Of a stretch of DNA of 64,000 nt, positions 27,938 to 46,385 are shown piece by piece (position 1 is the first letter of the stretch; each line of letters opens with the position of its first letter). A program made the translations under genes and the position numbers. The notes under the pieces are model-generated. The model was not told the DNA's origin, searched no databases, and worked only from the letters and a program-made list of their open reading frames with translations. This DNA is from Burkholderia sp. MS389 (GTDB taxonomy: Bacteria > Pseudomonadota > Gammaproteobacteria > Burkholderiales > Burkholderiaceae). The DNA lies in assembly GCF_016899425.1 (NCBI RefSeq), contig NZ_CP045995.1:2480001-2544000 (forward strand). The letters are read 5' to 3'.

Positions 27938-29358
27938 TCGCGCGCCTGCTGCCGCGGACGCTGCGCGGCCGGCTGACCGCGCTGATCATCCTGTCGACGT
28001 CGGTGATCCTCGCGTCGAGCGGCGTCGCGCTGTACGAAGCGCTGAGCAACCGCGTCGACACGACGGCAGCCGAGCAGATGGCCGGCATTTCCGCCGCATT
28101 GGGCACGCACCTGGCCGAGGCGCGCACGACGGCCGACGTCGCGCGCAACATCGACATCTGGATCGACCAGTTGCATGGTCATCCGAACATGGATCTCGCG
28201 ATCTTCGATGCCGATGGCGCGCGCCTCGTCGGCACGCCCGGATTCCGTCCATACGCGCCGCTGCTGTCGATGAACGTCGGACGCGCGCCGTTCGGCGTCG
28301 CGCCGCCCGGCGCGCGGCACCAGTATCTGTTGACGACCGTGCCGCTCGCCGGTGCGGGTGCGCCCGTGGTGCGCGTCGCCGTGCAGTACGACCGCAGCGC
28401 CGACGTTCTGCTGTTGCGCACGCATGCTTATACGATCGTCGTAATCCAGGTGTTCGGCGTGGTGATCGCGGCCGCGATCGCATACGGCATCGCCGCGCTC
28501 GGGCTGAGCCCGCTGCGGCGGTTCGCGGCGCGGGCCGAGCAGATGTCGACGAGCCGGCTCGCGCATCCGCTGCCGGAACTCGATACGTCAGGCGAGCTGA
28601 AGGAGCTCGAGCACGCGTTCAACGGGATGCTCGCGCGGCTGAACGAATCGTTTACGCGACTGAGCCAGTTCTCGTCGAATCTCGCACACGACATGCGCAC
28701 ACCGCTGACGAACCTGCAGGCGGCCGCGCAGGTCGTGCTGTCGCAACCGCGCAATGCGGACGAATACCGGAGCGTGATCGAGTCGAGCATCGACGAATAC
28801 CAGCGATTGTCGCGGATGATCGAGGACATGCTGTTTCTCGCGCGCTCGGAGCAGGCCGGCACGTCGATCGGCGTGCGGCGGCTGAATGCGGCGCAGGAGG
28901 CGGAGCGGGTGGCCGGCTACTACGAGGCGCTGGCGGAAGATGAAGGCGTGACGGTGAAGGTCGACGGCCACGCGTGGGTCGATGCGGATCTGACGCTGTA
29001 CCAGCGTGCGTTGAGCAACCTGCTGTCGAACGCGCTGACCTATGCGCCGCGCGGCAGCGTCGTGACGATCGACTGTGTCGAGCAGGGTGGCGCGACGACG
29101 ATCGCCGTGTCGGATACGGGGCCGGGCATTCCCGCGGAACATGTCGGGCGGATTTTCGAGCGCTTTTATCGCATCGATCCGTCGCGACACAATTCGGCGT
29201 CGGGCACGGGGCTCGGGCTCGCGATCGTCCGGTCGATCATGGACAATCACGGCGGCGAATGCGGCGTCGACAGCGAGCCGGGCCGCCGCACGACCTTCTG
29301 GCTGCGCTTTCCGCGACGGCCGGCCGAGCCCGAACGGCCGGCCGCCGTCAGCACCTGA
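27934..29358 (+). CDS. irlS: Heavy-metal sensor histidine kinase
   Basis: A protein of 474 residues. Two membrane spans (about residues 13-33 and 165-187) enclose a periplasmic sensor region, followed by HAMP, HisKA with His252 ([13 protein letters not shown]) and HATPase with DTGPGIP and GTGLGLAIV. It belongs to the CusS/CopS/CzcS/IrlS family that senses periplasmic metal and phosphorylates the partner regulator. Start overlaps the regulator stop as ATGA. It ends the pump operon; a GC-rich hairpin follows at once. The metal sensed is probably the HME1 set (Zn, Cd, Co), by association with czcA. Confidence 0.88.
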
Positions 29359-29360
29359 CA

Positions 29361-29382
29361 GCGCGGGCGGACACGCCCGCGC
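29361..29382 (+). terminator. Hairpin at the end of the czc operon
   Basis: GCGCGGGCG and CGCCCGCGC pair perfectly around GACA, two bases after the sensor stop. It also lies beyond the converging DUF4148 gene, so it may serve both strands. No T-run is present. Confidence 0.55.
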
Positions 29383-29437
29383 GTTCGCCGCCACGCAGCC
29401 GCGCGCGGTGCGCTGCCGGTGGCCGTCTGGCCGCGCA

Positions 29438-36703: not shown

Positions 36704-37519
36704 TCATCGGCCGTCGACCACGTCGCGCAGGAACGCGTCGAGCATCGCCACGTCGCCCCACGGCCGCTTGTATTCGCGGTCGTGTTCGGCATCGGCGAGC
36801 ATCGTCTCGACCAGCGCGTGGATCGCCGGTCGGCGCGGCCCGTATTCGCTTTCGTTCGCGCTCATCTTCAGCGCGAGCAACGCATCGAGCTCCGCGCGCA
36901 CAGCCGGCTCATGCACGGTGCCGTCGACGAGATCCGCGAAACGCATCGGCGGCATGCCGAGCCCCATGTCGATCCAGCGCACCGCGAGCAGCGGCCGCAG
37001 CACGTACAGGTACTTCTTGTAACGCACCGTGTCGCCTTGCAGATAGCCACGAAAATTCTTCTTCGCCATCGCGAGGTAGTGATGACGCCCTCGTACCGGC
37101 GAGAAGAACGCCGATGCCAGCGACCTGAGCCGCGGCGCCCAGCGCGCGTCTTCGCGATACACGACGGGCGAGTCGAGCCATTCGAGCAGCGTCGGATTCG
37201 AGCGTCGCAGCAGTTGCAGCGCCTTGCGCAATTCCCAGCCGCTGACGTCGAGCTCGTCGTCGAGCGGCCGTTCGATCACGTCGCGTTGCGGTTCGACGCT
37301 CAGGTACCAGTCGCGCCGGTGTGCGTACACGAAGCGTACGTCGTAATCGCTGTCCGGCGACGCGAATCCCCAGCCGCGGCTGCCCGATTCGCACGCGAAC
37401 AGCACGCTTACATCGTGGCGGCGCTCGACTTCCGCGAGCTCCGCCATCACGCGCGCCCGCACCGCCGGGTCGACCGGATGCGCGCTGCGTACGGTCGTCA
37501 TCGTCTTGTCGGTTTTCAT
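36704..37519 (-). CDS. rlaP: RNA-repair-associated nucleotidyltransferase
   Basis: A protein of 271 residues. CESGSRGWGFASPDSDYDVR is the nucleotidyltransferase G-S/G ... DxD motif of the polbeta fold, and WELRKALQLLRRSNPTLLEW continues the family pattern. This group (RlaP, DUF-type 'predicted nucleotidyltransferase') is linked by gene neighbourhood to RtcB and RNA-ligase repair systems and is thought to modify RNA ends or substitute for RtcA. It starts 55 bases after the rtcB stop and is the last gene before the terminator. Its nucleotide and RNA substrate are unknown. No rtcA is present in the window, so RlaP may do its end-processing job. Confidence 0.85.
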   Translation of the reverse strand: MKTDKTMTTVRSAHPVDPAVRARVMAELAEVERRHDVSVLFACESGSRGWGFASPDSDYDVRFVYAHRRDWYLSVEPQRDVIERPLDDELDVSGWELRKALQLLRRSNPTLLEWLDSPVVYREDARWAPRLRSLASAFFSPVRGRHHYLAMAKKNFRGYLQGDTVRYKKYLYVLRPLLAVRWIDMGLGMPPMRFADLVDGTVHEPAVRAELDALLALKMSANESEYGPRRPAIHALVETMLADAEHDREYKRPWGDVAMLDAFLRDVVDGR

Positions 37520-37574: not shown

Positions 37575-38798
37575 CTATCCCTTCACGCACACCACCTGGC
37601 GCAGCGTATGCATCACTTCGACGAGGCTGCGCTGGGCCGCCATCACCGCGTCGATGTCCTTGTAGGCCATCGGGATTTCATCGACGACGCCCGCGTCCTT
37701 CCGGCATTCGACGCCCTGCGTCGCCTTCGCCTGATCGTCGGCCGTGAAGCGGCGCTTCGCTTCGGTGCGGCTCATCGTCCGGCCCGCACCATGGCTGCAC
37801 GAGCAGAAGCTTTCCGGATTGCCGAGCCCGCGCACGATGAAGCTCTTCGCGCCCATCGAGCCCGGGATGATCCCGAGCTGCCCCTTCTGCGCGGACACCG
37901 CGCCCTTGCGCGTGACGAGCACGTCTTCGCCGAAGTGGCGTTCGCGCTGCACGTAGTTGTGGTGGCAGTTCACCGCGTGCTCGTCGACCGAAAACGGTGT
38001 GCCGATCACGCCGCGCGCCGCGCCGATCACCGCGTCCATCATTGCCTGCCGGTTGCGTCGCGCGTAGTCCTGCGCCCAGCCGACCGCCTCGACGTAATCG
38101 TCGAAGTGCCGGCTGCCTTCGGTGAAATACGCGAGGTTGCGATCCGGCAGGTTCGCGATGTGCTGGCGCATGTCGGCCTGCGCGAGTTCGATGAACAGGC
38201 TGCCGATCGCATTGCCGACGCCACGCGAGCCGCTGTGCAGCATGAACCACACGCGGTCCGCTTCGTCGATGCACACTTCGATGAAGTGGTTGCCGGTGCC
38301 GAGCGTGCCGAGATGCGCGTAGTGGTTCGTCTTTTCCAGCTTCGGATACTTGTCGACGATCCGCTGGAAACCCGGTTGCAGCGACTTCCACGCGTCGGTC
38401 ACGGCGGCCGGCGTGCGATCGCCCCATGCGCCCGGATCGCGGCGGCCCGGCGCGCGGCCGTGCGGGACCGCGCGCTCGATCGCGCTGCGCAGCCCACCCA
38501 GCGAATCCGGCAGGTCGGACGCGGTCAGCGTCGTGCGCGCGGCCATCATCCCGCAGCCGATGTCGACGCCGACCGCGGCCGGAATGATCGCGCCCTTCGT
38601 CGGAATCACGCTGCCGATCGTCGAGCCCTTGCCGAGGTGAACGTCCGGCATCACCGCGACGTGGCCGAAGATGAACGGCATCTGCGCGGTGTTGCGCAGT
38701 TGCGTGCGCGCTTCCTCTTCGACGGCGACGCCTTGCGTCCACATCTTCACCGGCTTGCCGTTCGCCAGTTCCATCACCTGATATTCGATGTCATTCAT
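37575..38798 (-). CDS. rtcB: RtcB RNA ligase
   Basis: A protein of 407 residues joining 2',3'-cyclic phosphate or 3'-phosphate ends to 5'-OH using GTP and Mn. GVDIGCGM holds the Mn-binding Cys, NHYAHLGTLGTGNHFIEV and NCHHNYVQRE provide His ligands, and CSCSHGAGRTMSR carries the His that takes GMP. All catalytic residues I can check are present. GGAGCAAATTCTG precedes the ATG, just at the edge of the inserted tnpB element, so the ribosome site was spared by the insertion. Role: repair of cleaved tRNA or other RNA under RtcR control. Confidence 0.95.
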   Translation of the reverse strand: MNDIEYQVMELANGKPVKMWTQGVAVEEEARTQLRNTAQMPFIFGHVAVMPDVHLGKGSTIGSVIPTKGAIIPAAVGVDIGCGMMAARTTLTASDLPDSLGGLRSAIERAVPHGRAPGRRDPGAWGDRTPAAVTDAWKSLQPGFQRIVDKYPKLEKTNHYAHLGTLGTGNHFIEVCIDEADRVWFMLHSGSRGVGNAIGSLFIELAQADMRQHIANLPDRNLAYFTEGSRHFDDYVEAVGWAQDYARRNRQAMMDAVIGAARGVIGTPFSVDEHAVNCHHNYVQRERHFGEDVLVTRKGAVSAQKGQLGIIPGSMGAKSFIVRGLGNPESFCSCSHGAGRTMSRTEAKRRFTADDQAKATQGVECRKDAGVVDEIPMAYKDIDAVMAAQRSLVEVMHTLRQVVCVKG

Positions 38799-38810
38799 CA
38801 GAATTTGCTC

Positions 38811-39960
38811 CGGGAAACCCCGCCATTGATGGCGGGAAGGAAAGGGGTGCTGTTGACAGGCGGCTTCTCCCACGGGTTAGGATCACCGGCATGATTCTTG
38901 TCTACCGCTACCGGGTGAAGTCGCTCAACGGACTGCTTAACAAGCAGAGCCGCGCGGTGAACTACGTCTGGAACTTTTGCAACGATACGCAGAAGCACGC
39001 GCTCAAATGGAGCAAGAAGTGGCCGACCGGCTTCGACCTGAATATGCTCACCACCGGCAGCAGCAAGGCGCTCGGTATCCACTCCGGTACGATCAACGCC
39101 ACGTGCGAGCAATATGCTAAGTCGCGCAGTCAGCACCGTCGGCCCTACCTGCGCTATCGCGGCAGGAAATCGCTTGGCTGGGTGCCGCTGAAGGGGCGTG
39201 ACCTGAAGCGCGAGGGCGACGCGTTTCGCTTTGCCGGCAACACCTTCCGCGTGTTTAACAGCCGCCCACTTCCCGAAGGCAAGATCAAGGGCGGCACCAA
39301 CTTCGCGCAGGATGCACGCGGCAACTGGTTTCTCAACATCGTGATCGAGATGCCCGATGTGCAGGCCCGCCCGGTCCGTTCCGGTGTGGGCATTGATCTC
39401 GGTCTGAAAGACTTCGCCACACTTTCGACCGGCGAGAAGCTGCCTAACGATCGGTTCGGTCGATGCGCGGCCGAGAAACTCGCGAAAGCGCAACGGGCGC
39501 GAAAGCACAAGCGGCATATCGCGAAGCTGCACGCCAAGGTCGCGAATGCCCGCGCCGATTTCCAGCATAAGCTCGCGCTCGATCTGGTGCGGCGTTTTGA
39601 TTACATCGCGGTCGGCAACGTGTCGGCCGCAAAACTCGCCAGAACCAGGATGGCGAAGAGCGCCTACGACGCATCCTGGTCGTCCTTCCGAAACAAGCTC
39701 CGCTACAAAGCGATCGCGCACGGGGCCACGTTCGAGGAAGTGGACGAAAGCGGTTCGACCCAGTCCTGTTCGTCGTGCGGATCGAAAGACAGCACGACGC
39801 GGCCGAAAGGTATCGCGGGACTGAGAATAAGAGAATGGGCCTGCAGTGACTGTGGTCTCGTGCATGATCGTGATATCAACGCTGCGCTGAACATTCTCCG
39901 ATGCGGACGTGCATCGCCAGGTGTGGGAATCCTCCGCCTTTAGGTGGACGAGGACGTTAA
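38811..39960 (+). mobile_element. IS200/IS605-type (IS1341-like) tnpB-only element
   Basis: A segment of about 1.15 kb with tnpB but no tnpA. At its left lies CCCGCCA-TTGA-TGGCGGG (38819-38836); at its right CCTCCGCC-TTTA-GGTGGACGAGG (39931-39953) overlaps the tnpB stop, then GACGTTAA. Such subterminal imperfect hairpins without inverted terminal repeats or target duplication are typical of this group. Exact ends cannot be set by eye. It separates slipin from rtcB and runs opposite to them, so it is a later insertion in the RNA-repair operon. Confidence 0.75.
38891..39943 (+). CDS. tnpB: TnpB-family RNA-guided nuclease with displaced RuvC-II Glu
   Basis: A protein of 350 residues. Helical N-half (VNYVWNFCNDTQKHALKW), then RuvC-I GIDLGLKDFATLS with Asp169, a region around 239-247 (YIAVGNVSA) where typical TnpB has a catalytic Glu but here shows Gly242, zinc finger Cys293, Cys296, Cys318, Cys321, and RuvC-III HDRDINAALNIL with Asp328. 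Glu282, Glu283 or Glu286 just before the zinc finger may replace the missing Glu, as in TnpB clades with a rearranged site; otherwise the protein is nuclease-dead. Its guide RNA would come from the 3' end of the gene and the right end of the element, reaching into the slipin side of the operon. Confidence 0.85.
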   Translation: MILVYRYRVKSLNGLLNKQSRAVNYVWNFCNDTQKHALKWSKKWPTGFDLNMLTTGSSKALGIHSGTINATCEQYAKSRSQHRRPYLRYRGRKSLGWVPLKGRDLKREGDAFRFAGNTFRVFNSRPLPEGKIKGGTNFAQDARGNWFLNIVIEMPDVQARPVRSGVGIDLGLKDFATLSTGEKLPNDRFGRCAAEKLAKAQRARKHKRHIAKLHAKVANARADFQHKLALDLVRRFDYIAVGNVSAAKLARTRMAKSAYDASWSSFRNKLRYKAIAHGATFEEVDESGSTQSCSSCGSKDSTTRPKGIAGLRIREWACSDCGLVHDRDINAALNILRCGRASPGVGILRL

Positions 39961-40022
39961 TTGCTTCACCTGATTCATTTCGGGGTCCGGCGCGATACAC
40001 GTGCGCCGCGCCGGCTCCTGCA

Positions 40023-41162
40023 TTACGCGCCCTTGATGCTGACGAGTCCGTTCAGCACCTGGTCGAGACCGCCGAACACCGAGATGCGGTCGATCCGTTC
40101 CGCGACGCGCTCGAGCGTTTCCAGCTCCTTGAGTCGCAGCGCGGTCGGGTTCTCTTCCATCACCTTCGCGGTGTTCAGCAGCGAACGCGTGGCCGCCGTT
40201 TCCTCGCGGCGGCGAATCACGTTCGCCTGCGCGGACTTCTCCGCTTCGACCACCTGCGCGAGGATCGTCTTCATGTCGCCCGGCAGCACGATATCCTTCA
40301 CGCCGACGCTGCGCACGTCCACGCCTGAATCGTCGAGGCGGGCGCGTACTTGCGCAATCACGACGTCGTCGAGCGACTGCTTGTCCTCCAGTAGCGCGTC
40401 GAGCGAGCGCGTGCCGACCGCCGAACGCAGCGCGAACTGCAGTTCGCGATACAGGTGTTCGACCGGCTTCTGCAACTGGCCGAACGCGTGCAGCACGTCC
40501 GCATAGCACCACGTCGCCGACAGGTTCAGCCGCAGCGCGACCTTGTCGCGCGTCAGGATTTCCTGCCCGCCGACTTCGATCGCCTGCAAGCGCAGATCGA
40601 CGAGTTCGACCGCGACGTCGCGGTTGAAGCGCCAGAACGCCGACGTACCCGCGTCCAGCACCCGCTCGATCTTGCCGTCGATCTTCAGTACACCGACGTG
40701 GTACGCCGGCACCTGAGCCAGCAGCACGCTCGTGAGCCCCGCCACGCCGCGCGCACGCAGCGACGGTTGCGCGATGCGCTTCACGAGCGCGGCGGGCAGC
40801 ATGCTGTCCTGCGCGAGATCGATGCGCTCCAGCCGATGCGCGGTCAGGCCACGCCAGTACAGCCGGCGCGTGCCGGGCGCCAGGATCTCGACGAGCACGT
40901 CGTCTTCGTAGCGCAGGCCGGCTTCGTCGTCGGCGAGATCCATCGCGACGAAATGCTGCGCGAGCACATCCTGTGCGTCGTGACGCAGGTAATCGGCCAG
41001 CGCTTCGTCGGCGAGCGGCGCATCGAGACGCGCGGTCTGCACCGACAGGCGCTTGAACGGATCGAAGGCCTTGAACACACCCGGTTCGAGCACCTTCACG
41101 AAATCGCCTTCGCTCATCAGCAGCGCGCGTTCGTTCTTTTTTACGACATGTCGCATCCACAT
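40023..41162 (-). CDS. Slipin (SPFH/Band-7 family) of the RNA-repair operon
   Basis: A protein of 379 residues. It starts MWMRHVVKKNERALLMSEGD; the SPFH domain covers about 130-300 (AFWRFNRDVAVELVDLRLQA, DDSGVDVRSVGVKDI), then a helical coiled part (AEKSAQANVIRRREETAATR). There is no strong N-terminal membrane anchor, unlike classical slipins. SPFH proteins form ring scaffolds. In many RNA-repair loci a slipin precedes rtcB, but its job there is unknown. It is the first coding gene after the sigma-54 promoter and the tRNA-like leader; AAAAGGACAAG precedes the ATG. Confidence 0.88.
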   Translation of the reverse strand: MWMRHVVKKNERALLMSEGDFVKVLEPGVFKAFDPFKRLSVQTARLDAPLADEALADYLRHDAQDVLAQHFVAMDLADDEAGLRYEDDVLVEILAPGTRRLYWRGLTAHRLERIDLAQDSMLPAALVKRIAQPSLRARGVAGLTSVLLAQVPAYHVGVLKIDGKIERVLDAGTSAFWRFNRDVAVELVDLRLQAIEVGGQEILTRDKVALRLNLSATWCYADVLHAFGQLQKPVEHLYRELQFALRSAVGTRSLDALLEDKQSLDDVVIAQVRARLDDSGVDVRSVGVKDIVLPGDMKTILAQVVEAEKSAQANVIRRREETAATRSLLNTAKVMEENPTALRLKELETLERVAERIDRISVFGGLDQVLNGLVSIKGA

Positions 41163-41359
41163 ATTCTTGTCCTTTTCTTCAATGGCCGCCGGGTGACGCG
41201 CATCGGGCGGATCGCGGTGCGACGCAATCGGGCGGGCGGCACGCTGGCCGGCGTCGAAGCGCATGGCGACGCGTCCTGCATCGCGTCGTCGTGCGCATTC
41301 GCGCGGGCCGTGCGGCCGCCCGGCGCGATCGCGCGGAACCGCAACCGGTCGGACGCGCG

Positions 41360-41418
41360 GCGGGCCTTGCGGCCCGCACCGGCGGGTACTGCTTTCATAC
41401 GAGACCGTCCTTGCGGAC
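41360..41418 (-). ncRNA. Two GCAA-tetraloop hairpins in the RNA-repair leader
   Basis: On the minus strand GTCC-GCAA-GGAC (41418-41407) and GCGGGCC-GCAA-GGCCCGC (41377-41360), both closed by the stable GNRA loop GCAA, come right after the tRNA-like element and before slipin. The second has a 7-bp stem. They are part of the same structured transcript; a role in processing or protein binding is possible. Confidence 0.5.
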
Positions 41419-41420
41419 AG

Positions 41421-41492
41421 CGTTCGAGCGGGATTCGAACCCGCCACCGGCCGGCTTTCGCCGGCTGCTCCACCTGACTGAGCTTCCGAACA
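41421..41492 (-). ncRNA. tRNA-like RNA with a GAAA tetraloop in place of the anticodon loop
   Basis: A 72-nt cloverleaf can be drawn: acceptor TGTTCGG / TCGAACG (7 bp, two G-U), AA, D-arm GCTC-AGTCAGGTG-GAGC, A, a 6-bp stem GCCGGC-GAAA-GCCGGC where the anticodon arm should be, five-base variable part CGGTG, T-arm GCGGG-TTCGAAT-CCCGC, discriminator C. There is no anticodon and no CCA is encoded. All arm lengths other than the anticodon arm are canonical. It lies within the sigma-54-driven leader of slipin, rtcB, rlaP. It resembles in idea the tRNA mimicry of bacterial Y RNAs. It probably engages tRNA-handling proteins, perhaps as decoy, substrate or signal for RtcR or RtcB. Confidence 0.75.
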
Positions 41493-41494
41493 AT

Positions 41495-41543
41495 GGGGCG
41501 CCCCGGGATTCGAACCCGGGCGAAGCATCCTGGCGCGCGCCCC
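41495..41543 (-). ncRNA. Acceptor/T-arm minihelix next to the tRNA-like RNA
   Basis: A 49-nt piece: GGGGCGC (41543-41537) pairs with GCGCCCC (41501-41495); inside is a T-arm CCCGGG-TTCGAAT-CCCGGG; D and anticodon arms are replaced by 16 bases. The T-loop TTCGAAT is identical to that of the adjacent 72-nt element. Three bases separate the two. It reads as half a tRNA, in the same leader transcript. Confidence 0.65.
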
Positions 41544-41666
41544 TTTGCCTTCGTCTGTCCATGGCGGCATGCGCTGCCGCGACGAACGAGGTTCGGCGGC
41601 GGCGCACCAGCAGGGCTTGTTGAACCCTGGCTCGTGGGCCAGCGGGACATCCGGCGTCTTCTATTT

Positions 41667-41682
41667 AGCGAGGAGCGTGCCA
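41667..41682 (-). promoter_or_regulatory. Sigma-54 promoter of the RNA-repair operon
   Basis: TGGCACGCTCCTCGCT on the minus strand: the -24 element TGGCACG is perfect and the -12 is TCGC instead of TTGC, with correct spacing. Transcription would begin near 41656, some 490 bases before slipin, so the tRNA-like elements are transcribed. RtcR, encoded divergently, is a sigma-54 activator. Confidence 0.85.
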
Positions 41683-41790
41683 GTGCGGGCGTGGGCTTTC
41701 GTGAAATTTCCCAGGCGATTGAAAATAAAGGGAATTTTTTTATTTGGCGCGGCCTGCTGGCAACGCTCGTTGCACCGCGCCGCCATGAAT

Positions 41791-41807
41791 ATCCGATACA
41801 ATCGGAT
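41791..41807 (+). promoter_or_regulatory. rtcR promoter -10 inside a palindrome
   Basis: ATCCGAT-ACA-ATCGGAT is a perfect 7-bp inverted repeat. It contains TACAAT (41797-41802), a good -10 for the plus strand, 30 bases before rtcR. Binding there would block rtcR transcription, which suggests autocontrol or another repressor. Confidence 0.5.
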
Positions 41808-41831
41808 CGCTTCTTATCCCATGAGATAAAC

Positions 41832-43448
41832 ATGCGCAAAACCGTCGCGATCGGTTTTCTCGGCACCGTACTCGACCAGGGCGGCCGCGCGCCGCGCCGT
41901 TACCGCAAATGGCGGCCGACGATTTCGCTGTGCGAGCAGCCCGGCCTGCCGATCGACCGGCTCGAACTGCTGCATTCGCTGGACTACACGCGTCTCGCCA
42001 ACCAGGTGCGGGACGATCTCGCGCGCGTGTCGCCGCACACCGACGTGCGGCTCACGCCGGTCACGATCCACGATCCGTGGGATTTCGAGGAGGTCTATGC
42101 GACGCTGCACGATTACGCACGCGCGTATCCGTTCGACCTCGAGCACGAGGATTACCTGATCCACATCACGACCGGCACGCACGTCGCGCAGATCTGCTGG
42201 TTCCTGCTGGCGGAAGCGCGCTACCTGCCCGCGCGTCTCGTGCAGACGGGGCCGCCGCAGCGGACGGACGAAGGGCCGAGCGGGCCGGGCACGATCTCGG
42301 TGATCGATCTCGACCTGTCGCGCTACAACCGGATCGCGCAGCGCTTCACGCGCGAGCGCGACGAAACGGTGTCGTTCCTGAAGGCCGGCATCGCGACGCG
42401 CAACGCGCGTTTCAACGCGCTGATCGAGCAACTGGAGCGCGTGGCCGTGCGGTCGCGCGCGCCGATGCTGCTGGTCGGGCCGACGGGTGCCGGCAAGTCG
42501 TTTCTCGCGAAGCGCGTGTACGAACTGAAGCGCGGCCGGCACCGGCTCGCGGGGCCGTTCATCGAGGTCAACTGCGCGACGCTGCGCGGCGACGCGGCGA
42601 TGTCGACGCTGTTCGGTCACGTGAAAGGCGCGTTCACGGGCGCGCAGTCGGCGCGCGCGGGGCTGCTGCGCGCAGCGGACGGTGGGCTGCTGTTTCTCGA
42701 CGAAATCGGCGAACTCGGGCTCGACGAACAGGCGATGCTGCTGAAGGCGATCGAGGAAAAGCGCTTCCTGCCGGTGGGCGCGGACGTCGAGGCGAGCAGC
42801 GATTTCGAGCTGATCGCGGGCACGCATCGCGACCTGCGGCAGATGGTGGCTGCCGGTACGTTCCGCGAGGATCTCTACGCGCGGATCAATCTGTGGACCT
42901 ACGAACTGCCGGGACTCGCCGAGCGCCGCGAGGACATCGAGCCGAACCTCGAATTCGAGCTCGACCGTTTCGGCCGCGAGCAGGGCGAGCAGGTGCGGTT
43001 CAACGTGGAGGCGAAGCGGCGCTATCTCGCGTTCGCGGCGTCGCCGCGCGCGACGTGGGCCGGCAACTTCCGCGAGCTGTCGGCCTCGGTCACGCGGATG
43101 GCGACGCTGGCCGATGCGGGGCGGATTACCGAGGCGCTCGCCGAGCAGGAAGTCGAGCGGCTGACGCGCACGTGGTCGTCGCCGGGTGGTGCGGGGGCGT
43201 CCGATGCATGCGTCGACGCGGTATTCGGTGCGCGGGCGGCGGAGCTCGACCTGTTCGACCGCGCGCAGCTCGAACGCGTGCTCGACGTGTGCCGCACGTC
43301 GGCGAGCCTGTCGGAAGCCGGGCGCACGCTGTTCGCGGTGTCGCGGAAGAGCAAGAAGCAGCCGAATGATGCGGACCGATTGCGCAAGTATCTCGCGCGG
43401 TTCGGGCTCGATTGGGACGGGGTGCGGCGCGCGCTCGACGGCGTGTGA
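41832..43448 (+). CDS. rtcR: RtcR, sigma-54-dependent activator of RNA repair
   Basis: A protein of 538 residues. Residues 1-190 form the RtcR regulatory domain of CARF type (VAIGFLGTVLDQGG, YLIHITTGTHVAQICWFLLA), which in its relatives senses damaged or tRNA-derived RNA ends. The AAA+ domain has Walker A GPTGAGKS at 216-223, the sigma-54-contact loop GAFTGA and the second region LFLDEIGEL. The end is a Fis-type DNA-binding helix (SEAGRTLFAVSRKSKKQPN). It is divergent from slipin, rtcB, rlaP and faces their sigma-54 promoter. Start MRKTVAIG follows GAGATAAAC. Confidence 0.95.
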   Translation: MRKTVAIGFLGTVLDQGGRAPRRYRKWRPTISLCEQPGLPIDRLELLHSLDYTRLANQVRDDLARVSPHTDVRLTPVTIHDPWDFEEVYATLHDYARAYPFDLEHEDYLIHITTGTHVAQICWFLLAEARYLPARLVQTGPPQRTDEGPSGPGTISVIDLDLSRYNRIAQRFTRERDETVSFLKAGIATRNARFNALIEQLERVAVRSRAPMLLVGPTGAGKSFLAKRVYELKRGRHRLAGPFIEVNCATLRGDAAMSTLFGHVKGAFTGAQSARAGLLRAADGGLLFLDEIGELGLDEQAMLLKAIEEKRFLPVGADVEASSDFELIAGTHRDLRQMVAAGTFREDLYARINLWTYELPGLAERREDIEPNLEFELDRFGREQGEQVRFNVEAKRRYLAFAASPRATWAGNFRELSASVTRMATLADAGRITEALAEQEVERLTRTWSSPGGAGASDACVDAVFGARAAELDLFDRAQLERVLDVCRTSASLSEAGRTLFAVSRKSKKQPNDADRLRKYLARFGLDWDGVRRALDGV

Positions 43449-43484
43449 TGACGAGAGGGGCGCGTGATGTCTGCGCTGCGCCCG

Positions 43485-44237
43485 TTACGCGCGGCAGATC
43501 GCGATGATCTCCGCGCTGGTCGCCTCGTCGAACGGGGCACGGTCCCAATCGCCGCACCAGTCGGCCGACGCGAAGCCGGCCGCCGTCACGCGGGCCTGCA
43601 ATTCGGATCGAGCGATGAAACGCAGCCGGCTCGTATTCGTCAGCACCGTATCGTCGCGACGGAAGCGGTAATGCGTGTCGAACGTCACGATCGCGCCGTC
43701 GATCGCCCGCACCGCGTGATGGAGATCGACGATGCCGAATGCGTGTGACTCGACGCTGCGTGCCGACTGCGCGGGTGTCCATGTTCGCCACGGTTCGATA
43801 CGCGGGTTGCGGGTGTCGAACAGGAAGCGGCCGCCGTCGGCGAGCACGCGTCGCACGCCGCGCAGCGTCGCATCGATGTCGTCGTCGGTCAGCAGGCACT
43901 GGAACGCGTGCCCGGTCATCGCGACCGCATCGAACGGCGCGCCGGGCGGCAGGCCGTCGAGTGCGCACGCGAGCCAGCGTACCGCGTCGGCACCCGGCTG
44001 GCGCCGCGCGTAATCGATCATCGCCGGTGCGGGATCGATCGCGACGACGTCATGCCCGGCTGCCGCGAGCCGTCGCGCGAACGTGCCGGTGCCGCAGCCG
44101 AGATCGAGGATGCGTTGCCCGGCGGCGCCGATCGTGGCCGCGTAGAACGCGAAGTCCCGATCGCCCGCGTTGAACACGTCGTACACCGCGACGAGGCGCG
44201 GGTCGGTGTAGAGCAGGTCCGCGTCGGCGCGCGTCAT
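43485..44237 (-). CDS. Class I SAM-dependent methyltransferase
   Basis: A protein of 250 residues. ILDLGCGTGTFARRLAAAGH is motif I for SAM, VVAIDPAPAMIDYAR motif II, FDAVAMTGHAFQ motif III. The later region (VRRVLADGGRFLFDTRNP) is the usual strand 5. It begins 14 bases after the stop of the LysE gene on the same strand, so they are likely co-transcribed. The substrate is not predictable; the fold is of the small-molecule methyltransferase kind. Confidence 0.87.
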   Translation of the reverse strand: MTRADADLLYTDPRLVAVYDVFNAGDRDFAFYAATIGAAGQRILDLGCGTGTFARRLAAAGHDVVAIDPAPAMIDYARRQPGADAVRWLACALDGLPPGAPFDAVAMTGHAFQCLLTDDDIDATLRGVRRVLADGGRFLFDTRNPRIEPWRTWTPAQSARSVESHAFGIVDLHHAVRAIDGAIVTFDTHYRFRRDDTVLTNTSRLRFIARSELQARVTAAGFASADWCGDWDRAPFDEATSAEIIAICRA

Positions 44238-44250
44238 GCAGCCGCGCACA

Positions 44251-44877
44251 TCAGCGCTGCTGCACGGCCACGCGCAGCCCGAGCGCGATGAAGATCGAGC
44301 CGATGATCTTGCCCTGCCAGCGCGTGAGCCACGTGAGCCGCTTCACGATGCGGCCGAGCGGGCGGATCGAGCACGCGATCAGTGTCGTGTAGAGCGAGCT
44401 GAGCACGACGAAGATCAGCCCGAGCACCGCGAACTGCACGAACGTCGAACCGCGCTCCGGATGCACGAACTGCGGCATGAACGCGAGAAAGAACAGCGCG
44501 GTTTTCGGATTCAGCACTTCGGCGGGAATCGCCTGCAAGTACGCCCTGAGCGGCGTGACGGGCGACACCTGCGGCAGCGACGGGTCGGCCGCCTTCTCGA
44601 GCAGCGCGCGCACGCCGAGGTAGATCAGGTACGCGGCGCCGGCCAGCTTCACGACGTTGAACGCGAGTGCCGACGTCATCAGCAGCGCGGACAGCCCCAC
44701 GGCCGCGAACAGCGTATGCACGAAGTCGCCGCTCGCGACGCCGAGGCCAGTCAGGATGCCGGTCTTGCGGCCGCCCTGCACGGTGCGGCTCAGCACGAGC
44801 AGCACGGCGGGACCGGGAATCAGGAACAGGCCCAGAACGACGGCCGTGAAGGTGGTCAGCGTGGTCAGGTCGAACAT
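44251..44877 (-). CDS. LysE/RhtB-family amino-acid exporter
   Basis: An inner-membrane protein of 208 residues with about six spans. FLIPGPAVLLVLSRTVQGGR is the conserved P-G-P region and GLGVASGDFVHTLFAAVGLS the second; NPKTALFFLAFMPQF is the third RhtB signature. It exports homoserine, threonine or other neutral amino acids. It starts 168 bases from the divergent AraC-family gene, which may control it. Complete length, no defects. Confidence 0.9.
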   Translation of the reverse strand: MFDLTTLTTFTAVVLGLFLIPGPAVLLVLSRTVQGGRKTGILTGLGVASGDFVHTLFAAVGLSALLMTSALAFNVVKLAGAAYLIYLGVRALLEKAADPSLPQVSPVTPLRAYLQAIPAEVLNPKTALFFLAFMPQFVHPERGSTFVQFAVLGLIFVVLSSLYTTLIACSIRPLGRIVKRLTWLTRWQGKIIGSIFIALGLRVAVQQR

Positions 44878-45044
44878 GGCGGCTCCGGCAGGTTGGCGCA
44901 GCGGCAGGGGATCGGCGCATTGTATTCGGTTCGGCGCGCGGCCGCAGACGGCCGTTTTCAAACGGCGCGGCCGCGCCGGCGCCTTTCTGGTATAAGCACG
45001 ACAGGGCGCGCCGGCGTCCGGCCTTCTTTACAGCCCGTCGTTCC

Positions 45045-45845
45045 ATGCGCGACCTTCCACCGATCACCGATCCCGCCGCGGACGCCGACGTCTATCACGT
45101 GCCGCGTCCGCTCGTCGTGTTCGGCGGCTCGGTCGTCGAGCCCGAATGGCGGCTCGAGCGGCACAGCCATCGTCAGGCGCAACTGCTCTACACGTTGAGC
45201 GGCGTCGTCTATTGCGAGATCGACGGCGGCGTGTGGACTGCGCCGCCGCAATGCACGGTCTGGATTCCGGGCGATGTCCCGCATGCGGCGCGCGGCTCGG
45301 CCGGCGCGACTTTCTACGCGGTACTGGTCGAACCCGACGCGGCGCTCGAGCTGCCCACGCGCTGCTGCACGCTGGCCATGTCGCCGCTGTTGCGCGAACT
45401 GCTGCTGAAGGCGGCCAGCTTCCCGAACCTGTACGACGTCGACGGGCCGCAGGGGCGGCTGGTGGCGACGCTGCTCGACGAACTCGTCGCGGCGCCGATC
45501 GAGGATCTGTACCTGCCGATGCCGGCCGACCGCCGGCTGCGCAAGCTGATCGACCATCTGCTCGACGATCCGGCCGACAAGTCGCCGCTGGCCGAACTCG
45601 CGCGGCGCGCGGGCATCAGCGAGCGCAGCCTCACGCGGCTCGCGACGAAGGAACTCGGCATGAGCCTGGGCGACTGGCGCCGTCGGCTGCACGTCGCGCT
45701 GTCGTTGCGGATGCTGACGACCGGCCGCCGCGTGCATCAGATCGCAATCGATCTCGGCTACGAGAGCGCGAGCAGTTTCGTCACGATGTTCCGCAAGGCG
45801 ACCGGCAAGTCGCCGACGCAATACCTGACCGACCGGCAACGCTGA
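45045..45845 (+). CDS. AraC-family regulator with cupin N-domain
   Basis: A protein of 266 residues. The N-half is a cupin-like sensor (HSHRQAQLLYTLSGVVYCEI, WIPGDVPHAA); the C-half has two helix-turn-helices (LAELARRAGISERSLTRLAT and VHQIAIDLGYESASSFVTMF). Its domain order matches the AraC members that regulate neighbouring transporters. It is divergent from the LysE exporter gene and is the likely regulator of that exporter and the methyltransferase. The effector is unknown. Confidence 0.88.
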   Translation: MRDLPPITDPAADADVYHVPRPLVVFGGSVVEPEWRLERHSHRQAQLLYTLSGVVYCEIDGGVWTAPPQCTVWIPGDVPHAARGSAGATFYAVLVEPDAALELPTRCCTLAMSPLLRELLLKAASFPNLYDVDGPQGRLVATLLDELVAAPIEDLYLPMPADRRLRKLIDHLLDDPADKSPLAELARRAGISERSLTRLATKELGMSLGDWRRRLHVALSLRMLTTGRRVHQIAIDLGYESASSFVTMFRKATGKSPTQYLTDRQR

Positions 45846-45934
45846 ACGCCTACGCTGCGCGCTCGCACACGTTTGGCCGGATTGAAAAAGCAGTTGGCCG
45901 GGATGAGAAATGACGCATCGGGTCTCGATCCATA

Positions 45935-45955
45935 AGATGAGAATCGTTCTCATCT
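45935..45955 (+). promoter_or_regulatory. Fur-like perfect palindrome overlapping the leader
   Basis: AGATGAGAA-TCG-TTCTCATCT: 9-bp perfect arms with a 3-base centre. The core TGAGAATCGTTCTCA is a good match to the Fur 7-1-7 operator. It is immediately followed by GGAGG, the Shine-Dalgarno of the next gene. It could be a Fur operator or, in RNA, a hairpin next to the ribosome site. Confidence 0.6.
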
Positions 45956-45965
45956 GGAGGTCGAC

Positions 45966-46385
45966 ATGCAAATCGTCACGACTGAATTCCCGTTTGTCTG
46001 GCTGCGTTACAGCGGCTCGACCCACACCGATCCCGCCCGCCTGATTGCCGAACTCGACGCGCTGCTCGCGCGCCGCGAACGCTTCGTCTTGCTGACCGAC
46101 GATGCCCCGTCCGGCGACGATCGCGCGGACAACGATCACGAGATGCGCAAACAGCTCGCGAAGTGGAGCAAGGCCAACCGTGCGCTGTCGCGCGAACGGA
46201 TCCCCGGGATGATCGCGATCGAGCCCAACGCGGCGCGGCGCGTGGCGCTCAATGCCTTTTCGGGCGCCTTCGAGAAGGTCTGGGGCTATCCGCTGAACGC
46301 GGCGGCGAGCCGCGACGACGCACTGGCGCTCGCGCAACGGCTGCTCGCCGAACCGGCGCCCGGCGTCGCGGCGGCGAACGCCTGA
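45966..46385 (+). CDS. Unrecognised 139-residue cytoplasmic protein, probably iron-regulated
   Basis: No signal peptide or membrane span. The order of predicted elements (MQIVTTEFPFVWLRYSGSTH, IAELDALLARRERFVLLTDD, NRALSRERIPGMIAI, ALNAFSGAFEKVWGYPL) suggests an alpha/beta fold of SpoIIAA/STAS-like kind, but this is a visual impression. A strong GGAGG ribosome site and a Fur-like palindrome precede it directly. It stands alone between AraC and LysR regulator genes. Function unknown. Confidence 0.6.
   Translation: MQIVTTEFPFVWLRYSGSTHTDPARLIAELDALLARRERFVLLTDDAPSGDDRADNDHEMRKQLAKWSKANRALSRERIPGMIAIEPNAARRVALNAFSGAFEKVWGYPLNAAASRDDALALAQRLLAEPAPGVAAANA

Follow-up and report, generated by a model that had tools for sequence, protein, structure and literature searches.

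We analysed a 64,000-nucleotide stretch of the Burkholderia sp. MS389 genome (NZ_CP045995.1, positions 2,480,001–2,544,000; hereafter the window), in which RtcR, a sigma-54 promoter (by consensus only) and RtcB mark an RtcR-controlled RNA-repair operon. The divergent sigma-54 activator gene rtcR (41832..43448, + strand) matches NF038308 with 839.8 bits (cut-off 650) and PF06956 with 272.2 bits. The promoter TGGCACGctccTCGCT (41667..41682, − strand) was called from the sequence with the generally known sigma-54 consensus and is altered in few of 41 aligned loci; the transcript is expected to start near 41656. The first gene past the leader RNA encodes a slipin (SPFH/Band-7; 40023..41162, −; PF01145, 95 bits), followed by the RNA ligase gene rtcB (37575..38798, −; PF01139, 435 bits) and the RNA-repair nucleotidyltransferase gene rlaP (36704..37519, −; PF10127, 322.6 bits). 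The list of open reading frames places a further frame (38891..39943, +) between slipin and rtcB, which we take to resemble TnpB and which may separate rtcB from control by the RtcR promoter in MS389. The RtcR operons of E. coli and Salmonella share RtcR, the sigma-54 promoter and RtcB with the window, which adds slipin as the first gene, an RNA leader and RlaP; the accessible part of the P. aeruginosa description presents that operon without such a leader RNA.

Architecture of the leader RNA

The promoter-to-slipin leader (~41655–41162, −) holds a structured 5′ domain, an acceptor and T-arm minihelix (E1) and a tRNA cloverleaf (E2), in that order. A first-pass annotation of this DNA had described the minihelix, a cloverleaf with a GAAA loop, two GCAA hairpins and the sequence TTCGAAT in both T-loops, all of which are present on the − strand; it had overlooked the conserved 5′ domain at 41652–41558. 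This 95-nt domain (41558..41652, −) was recognised by covariation in alignment A4 and is laid out as a hairpin, the motif YGGTGC, a helix and GCATGCCGC. A4 comprises 38 diverse sequences, namely the window and 37 of 60 distinct loci, 16 of 78 leaders having stayed outside the extraction because the spacing rule or the motif failed. It contains 123 cells with changes on both sides of a pair versus 42.7 in shuffled alignments (0 of 500 shuffles), and its covariation score is 0.421 versus 0.180 after shuffling.

E1 (41495..41543, −), also defined by covariation, has neither D-arm nor anticodon arm. In the window its acceptor pairs as GGGGCGC/GCGCCCC and its T-stem as CCCGGG/CCCGGG, closed by the T-loop TTCGAAT; the seventh acceptor pair is not general, aligned relatives supporting six. 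Among 59 distinct relatives, 32 E1 acceptors form at least 6 contiguous base pairs with their own 3′ strand, compared to 210 of 3286 with strands from foreign loci and 305 of 2950 with shuffled ones, and the acceptor sequences are highly variable (33 distinct 3′ strands). NCCA follows the acceptor, at an offset of 5–7, in 42 of 63 relatives' E1; no CCA follows E1 in the window, and the aligned Burkholderia likewise have none. An acceptor joined to a T-arm is what RNase P recognises, and the minimal substrate of that enzyme resembles E1. By this analogy, E1 has the shape of a pre-tRNA processing substrate.

E2 (41421..41492, −) was recognised from the sequence, ARAGORN and covariation. It combines a D-arm (GCTC/GAGC), a 6-bp stem at the anticodon position (GCCGGC/GCCGGC) capped by a GAAA tetraloop, and a T-arm with the loop TTCGAAT. 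The T-stem is 6 bp by covariation (columns 106–124: AU 18, GC 12, GU 9), and RNAalifold recovered the same fold with strong covariation of the sixth pair; the acceptor is therefore 5–6 bp, or 7 only with a T·G end pair. Hence the earlier statement that all other arm lengths of the 72-nt element fit a tRNA holds only roughly, the T-stem and acceptor departing from it. The hairpin CTGTCC-GCAA-GGACGG (41405..41420, −), with three pairs changed on both sides, lies immediately 3′ of E2, and a second hairpin, GCGGGCC-GCAA-GGCCCGC (41360..41377, −), is seen in the sequence and the alignment, with no separate count of changes.

E2 resembles tRNA (RF00005) in its cloverleaf, D-loop GG and T-loop of the form TTCRANY, but the window's element differs from tRNA in having a tetraloop in place of the seven-base anticodon loop and no 3′ CCA. 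ARAGORN returned only "tRNA-???" for 41420–41492, and E2 is missing from the 67 RF00005 matches of its genome at E≤1. At the same E-value Rfam placed tRNA-Sec over E2 with 24.5 bits, below the gathering threshold of 47, and mascRNA scored 23.3 bits in the tRNA-like region of the window (listed for E1), below its threshold of 42.5. There is no ordinary tRNA cluster in the window, where ARAGORN made only two doubtful calls, one of them E2; the other (29313–29403, −) has a two-base anticodon.

Across relatives, the D-loop GG and an A at position 14 are found in 72 of 72 E2 elements (the search pattern allowed A or G at position 14), and T at position 8 in 58 of 72. Acceptor pairing is weak, with at least 5 contiguous base pairs in 18 of 63 (131 of 3796 with foreign strands) and at least 6 in 9, and CCA follows E2 in 9 of 76. 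In nearly all of 39 aligned relatives the loop at the anticodon position reads GAAA, GCAA, GCGA, GAGA or UUCG. Beside rtcR the loop has four bases in 31 of 55 elements, 27 of those being GNRA; elements without an adjacent rtcR have a seven-base loop in 13 of 17, with differing anticodons. These counts come from a crude loop-length fitter with some misreads (L207, L219 and L233, scored 3, were read as 7). Since the tRNA core is kept while the anticodon arm varies, shape rather than decoding seems to be conserved.

Conservation within Burkholderia

We aligned 39 distinct relatives (A1), dropping one locus identical to another (L008, identical to L006), one too divergent (L041, whose second element is broken) and one without E1 and E2 (L042). 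The 1521 pair cells of E1, E2 and the hairpin that follows are 99.3% preserved, and 8 pairs have changed on both sides versus 2.8 in shuffles (0 of 500). The first-pass annotation had proposed that the leader encodes tRNA-like RNAs and had named missing compensatory changes in related genomes as evidence to the contrary; such changes were sought and found, and the covariation among the 39 relatives indicates that the structure is kept by selection. Two other origins of the signal were rejected: a coding leader, as the indels of relatives do not come in threes, and chance hairpins in GC-rich DNA, by the shuffles and by the reverse strand, which gave 0 of 80 in the slipin leaders described below (the best 80 of 555).

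A 341-base leader query gave long matches in 39 of 65 genomes of the genus, MS389 included, and partial matches in G050 and G016; the remainder of the 51 tallied are short stretches. In the 31 genus genomes listed, rtcR is whole in 17, a fragment in one (G033) and missing from 13. Because ordinary tRNAs also score with the model R1, reaching 47.4 bits, only matches of at least 98 bits were counted. Such matches occur in 17 of 17 genomes with a whole rtcR and 0 of 14 others, and in 42 of 398 genomes, 37 of these from the genus itself. At two loci, L140 (G016) and L142 (G033), rtcR is reduced to a fragment, rtcB is kept, and E1, E2 and the whole slipin gene are gone; L140 retains the promoter and the start of the 5′ domain, and L142 a slipin remnant.

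Association with slipin across bacteria

Six slipins from RNA-bearing operons were aligned and used to collect 80 loci, the best 80 of 555 matches, which include Acidovorax, Delftia, Comamonas, Variovorax, Rubrivivax, Burkholderia, Paraburkholderia, Azonexus, Pseudomonas and others. tRNA-like elements are present in 78 of these best 80 of 555, the two misses (L259 and L262) having leaders truncated by contig ends, with 316 and 22 nt left. The T-arm motif lies on the leader strand in 78 and on the reverse strand in 0 of the same best 80 of 555, compared to a block-shuffled mean of 0.4; a strict pattern finds 77 and a relaxed one 78, the extra locus being L226, and in L235 two of three T-arms belong to ordinary tRNA genes. 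One E1 without a D-arm and one E2 with a D-arm, their T-stems 64–79 nt apart, make up the arrangement in 56 of the best 80 of 555. As the 80 loci share ancestry, the co-occurrence is partly inheritance. A strict sigma-54 pattern is found in 40 of the 78 leaders, with a near-match, TGGCACACATCTGGCA, in Acidovorax; many of the other leaders that it missed have no adjacent rtcR.

A survey that sampled rtcR evenly, over 398 phylum genomes (27 over the cut-off) and 369 class genomes (13 over) in overlapping sets, gave 33 leaders with an identifiable first gene. T-arm elements occur in 7 of 7 slipin-first leaders and 2 of 26 others (Fisher p = 8e-6, window and one congener included), or in 5 of 5 versus 2 of 26 without the genus itself (p = 1e-4); among the 26, the Ro60-first leaders have none (0 of 10). 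Left out of the 26 are L176, with a weak Ro60-like first gene, and L181, whose first gene could not be told, and the survey also excludes L183, which passed the cut-off but lies at the end of a contig, and L175, L184 and L185, which fell below it. Of the two positive leaders that are not slipin-first, L151 is AU-rich and taken as spurious, and L165 (leader of G721) apparently has an ordinary tRNA-Pro(tgg) with CCA between rtcR and rtcB. As a separate observation, five loci of genus g24 (L066–L070) carry a different, short basic ORF ahead of rtcB, in the place that Ro60 takes as first gene in L064 and L065.

We also searched with R2, a model of the 5′ domain alone that contains no tRNA arm; the window, itself among the building sequences, scores 67.3 bits. 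Over 399 genomes of the order, T-arm element(s) and slipin come after 14 of 15 R2 matches, the sole exception being the weakest match (28.5 bits). Three matches (window, L270 and L274) are building sequences, and thus 11 of 12 independent matches fit. Eight of the 14 adjoin rtcR and six do not; in five of these six, at least one ordinary tRNA gene lies upstream, and L270, the sixth, shows none within its 1.5 kb or in the larger stretch L285. The latter carries a tRNA-Asp call between slipin and rtcB in G1266 (L285:3981-4057). Among 52 rtc loci, R2 matches 12, which are 11 of the slipin type and L063, without slipin, and no rtcB-first or Ro60-first locus. It missed the slipin-type locus L166, gave no report for L288, L290 and L291, and reached only 20.7 bits in L289.

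The arrangement varies among relatives. The RNA is kept beside rtcB without slipin in L063 and L137, P. aeruginosa PA7 keeps E2 with no recognisable E1, Photobacterium (L290) has two tandem cloverleafs and L166 has three. For 14 slipin loci without an adjacent rtcR the whole genome was searched, and in 13 of these genomes, mostly draft MAGs of unstated completeness (L207 is an isolate), the RtcR domain PF06956 was found nowhere in the genome. A complete single-contig genome, G645, likewise has no RtcR match and shows the order tRNA genes, HNH, RNA, slipin, rtcB. By ARAGORN, at least four ordinary tRNA genes, together with an HNH gene, precede the RNA in L210, L215, L218, L220, L221 and L234, none with an adjacent rtcR; relatives of this protein, an HNH by Pfam, occur in 15 of the 80 slipin loci (best 80 of 555).

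Slipin relatives also occur in nine plasmid records. A phage origin was rejected, as no slipin relative was found in 50,697 phage records (E≤1e-10); one lies at a contig edge among viral contigs. In Citrobacter the order is rtcR, leader, slipin and rlaP, with no rtcB in the operon. The E. coli leader, read in one record, shows a sigma-54-like site, a hairpin similar to the 5′ domain, one T-arm and a closed hairpin, and the Citrobacter leader likewise has a single T-arm followed by a closed hairpin. In E. coli WAT (L292:3501-6387), slipin and a nucleotidyltransferase gene stand between yjbD and lysC, next to a zeta toxin family gene and with no rtcB or rtcR beside them. The slipin gene is present in 1623 of 5426 complete E. 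coli genomes; a second record, a chromosome, has no annotated feature in the slipin leader gap. A Subdoligranulum (Bacillota) plasmid carries a WYL gene, a leader with CGGTGCGC...GCGTATGCCG and two T-arms, slipin, and RtcB-like and RlaP-like ORFs named by reading their translations. Of the three leaders, R2 matches only that of Citrobacter, weakly (20.7 bits), and membership of these distant loci, as of L166 and L288–L291, therefore depends on visual inspection and the T-arm motif. The proposal of a tRNA-like RNA encoded by this operon is supported, and is extended by the association with slipin and by a range wider than Burkholderiales; the repair operon seems to produce a mimic of its own substrates.

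Comparison with known RNAs and possible roles

The closest known parallel is bacterial Y RNA (YrlA, RF02553), which in rsr-yrlBA-rtcBA operons is, like the slipin RNA, a non-decoding RNA with tRNA-like D- and T-arms in an RNA-repair operon. Its partner, the Ro60 ring, is a large assembly; slipin is likewise the neighbour of the slipin-leader RNA, and SPFH proteins form large assemblies. The two RNAs differ in layout. In Y RNA the tRNA domain is permuted, running from the T-arm through a closed acceptor hairpin to the D-arm, and sits on a stem that binds Ro60, whereas E1 and E2 have open tandem acceptors in the normal, unpermuted order with an additional 5′ domain; the T-arm and closed hairpin of the E. 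coli and Citrobacter leaders are to be noted in this respect. The YrlA model found no match in window positions 38000–46000 at E≤1, nor in L158, L161, L133 and L063 at E≤0.05. Other slipin leaders scored 29–34 bits (L149, L153, L162, L166), 36.6 bits (L265) and 27 bits (L290), below the gathering threshold of 69, and the Ro60-type positive control L144 scored 70.9 bits. TROVE/Ro60 was found in 0 of the 22 RNA-bearing genomes searched (MS389 and 21 others), in agreement with the earlier remark that the MS389 genome has no Ro60 gene. Membership in the Y RNA family was therefore rejected by score, layout and neighbour. The L176 leader (G1074), ahead of the weak Ro60-like first gene, itself has the permuted Y RNA layout of T-arm, closed acceptor hairpin and D-arm, and scores 37.9 bits with YrlA, below gathering.

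The mascRNA/menRNA family (RF01684) shares with the slipin RNA a short tRNA-like acceptor and T-arm within a long transcript, but is mammalian and not bacterial; these RNAs are released from the long transcript by RNase P. Clusters of tRNA genes offer another comparison. The accessible portion of one account describes mycobacterial tRNA array units that carry an HNH endonuclease (PMC5966550), and that of another describes TrcR of Anabaena as a repressor of the trn operon, a tRNA array, and of rtcB, with a slipin gene and HNH genes rising in the trcR mutant and, according to its authors, no RtcR (PMC10272220). Such units form the same kind of neighbourhood as the rtcR-less relatives, the window being without an array, and neither account, in its accessible portion, describes a tRNA-mimic leader RNA. 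We recognised no report of a slipin-linked tRNA-like RNA in the open literature as far as accessible to our search, which is not proof of its being unpublished.

Slipin is the most constant neighbour of this covarying tRNA-like RNA, which is non-decoding in the window, and we are almost certain that the leader RNA is genuinely structured and part of the slipin repair module. Its partner is sought in slipin or RNA repair rather than in RtcR because the RNA precedes slipin also in loci and genomes without rtcR. By analogy with Y RNA, the leader RNA probably acts in trans as a tRNA mimic; that its direct partner is slipin is plausible but less secure. Taken as a whole, we tentatively favour one conserved three-part non-coding RNA that would serve as a trans-acting tRNA-mimic partner of the slipin assembly. 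The best reading is that this tRNA mimic, made with slipin, would be a Ro60-independent counterpart of Y RNA. The parallel may be functional, each kind of operon pairing a tRNA mimic with a possible scaffold protein.

In the mechanism that we propose, a portable module of RNA, slipin, rtcB and in some cases rlaP would have been placed under different controls: RtcR and sigma-54 here, a position after tRNA genes, often with an HNH gene, in others, and a WYL gene in the Bacillota plasmid. The leader would be transcribed as one unit, from which tRNA maturation enzymes may cut out or trim E1 and E2. These would adopt the shape of a tRNA, play no part in decoding, and join the slipin assembly in trans as its RNA partner, much as Y RNA does with the Ro60 ring. 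The RNA–slipin assembly could then hold, sort or shield tRNA-shaped substrates of RtcB and RlaP during tRNA damage.

Two other roles make use of the same tRNA likeness, and we consider each unlikely. As a decoy, E1 and E2 would be bound or cut by tRNA-cutting toxins, at the acceptor, T-arm or elbow, in place of tRNA; in favour of this, the tRNA core is conserved with a freely varying anticodon arm, and the module also adjoins tRNA genes. However, the tetraloops found beside rtcR (31 of 55) remove the site of anticodon nucleases, the acceptors vary among taxa (33 distinct E1 3′ strands) so that no single toxin site is kept, and slipin as the constant neighbour is left unexplained. Processing punctuation, with E1 and E2 as RNase P and tRNA 3′-end signals that free the slipin-rtcB mRNA from the leader or from upstream tRNAs and leave functionless pieces, would account for an RNA that stands just ahead of the first gene, follows real tRNA genes where rtcR is absent, and has in E1 a near-minimal RNase P substrate with NCCA in 42 of 63, but not readily for the D-arm, D-loop GG and covarying 5′ domain, which exceed the needs of a cut site. 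Moreover, the RNA is kept where no tRNA genes precede, and R2 finds none in rtcB-first or Ro60-first leaders.

The remaining explanations fare less well. Control in cis, by a switch on slipin translation that senses tRNA-maturation load or broken tRNA, is consistent with a structured 5′ domain and a position directly upstream of slipin in a long leader; we consider it improbable, as L063 has the RNA before rtcB instead. The first-pass annotation had suggested a ligand for RtcR, and a ligand or feedback RNA is in keeping with the loss of E1 and E2 where rtcR has decayed in the genus (L140, L142) and with the activation of RtcR by damaged tRNA, as the accessible part of one report describes it (PMC7790460). 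Such a main role is very improbable, since the RNA persists although no RtcR was found in 13 of the 14 genomes tested or in G645, is recognisable beside the WYL gene of the Bacillota plasmid, and was not detected in operons that have RtcR but begin with Ro60 or rtcB. Another suggested role, as a substrate for RtcB, loses support from the Citrobacter and E. coli loci, where a reduced RNA stands with slipin and rlaP and no rtcB is in the operon, although E. coli has rtcB elsewhere in its genome. Decaying, functionless tRNA genes would fit E2 elements that are more tRNA-like without an adjacent rtcR (seven-base loops in 13 of 17) and their often imperfect acceptors, but we give this almost no credence, since E1, E2 and the 5′ domain all show compensatory changes and the RNA persists in distant bacteria.

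The RNA accompanies slipin even without the regulator or an adjacent ligase gene, and the module therefore appears to be built around the RNA, as in the case of Ro60 and Y RNA. Our preferred reading of a slipin-bound tRNA mimic leads to a broader and still more tentative proposal. A second, Ro60-independent ribonucleoprotein for RNA damage could exist, in which an SPFH/slipin assembly and a dedicated tRNA-mimic RNA travel jointly with RtcB and RlaP, governed by three or more kinds of control, from Betaproteobacteria via Gammaproteobacteria to at least one member of Bacillota; if the one E. coli leader read is typical, about 30% of the complete genomes of that species would carry it in reduced form. 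The module bears on the role that slipin plays in RNA-repair operons and on the substrates of bacterial RtcB. It also brings tRNA repair and groups of spare tRNA genes together in a single neighbourhood, and its E. coli version brings the question of slipin and its RNA into a tractable species. Some relatives' elements exceed the tRNA threshold of 29, namely E2 of L257 (50.0), the first elements of L265 (50.2) and L149 (56.4), and the third element of L166 (66); as the element scores as an ordinary tRNA gene in these genomes, it may be hidden in their annotation.
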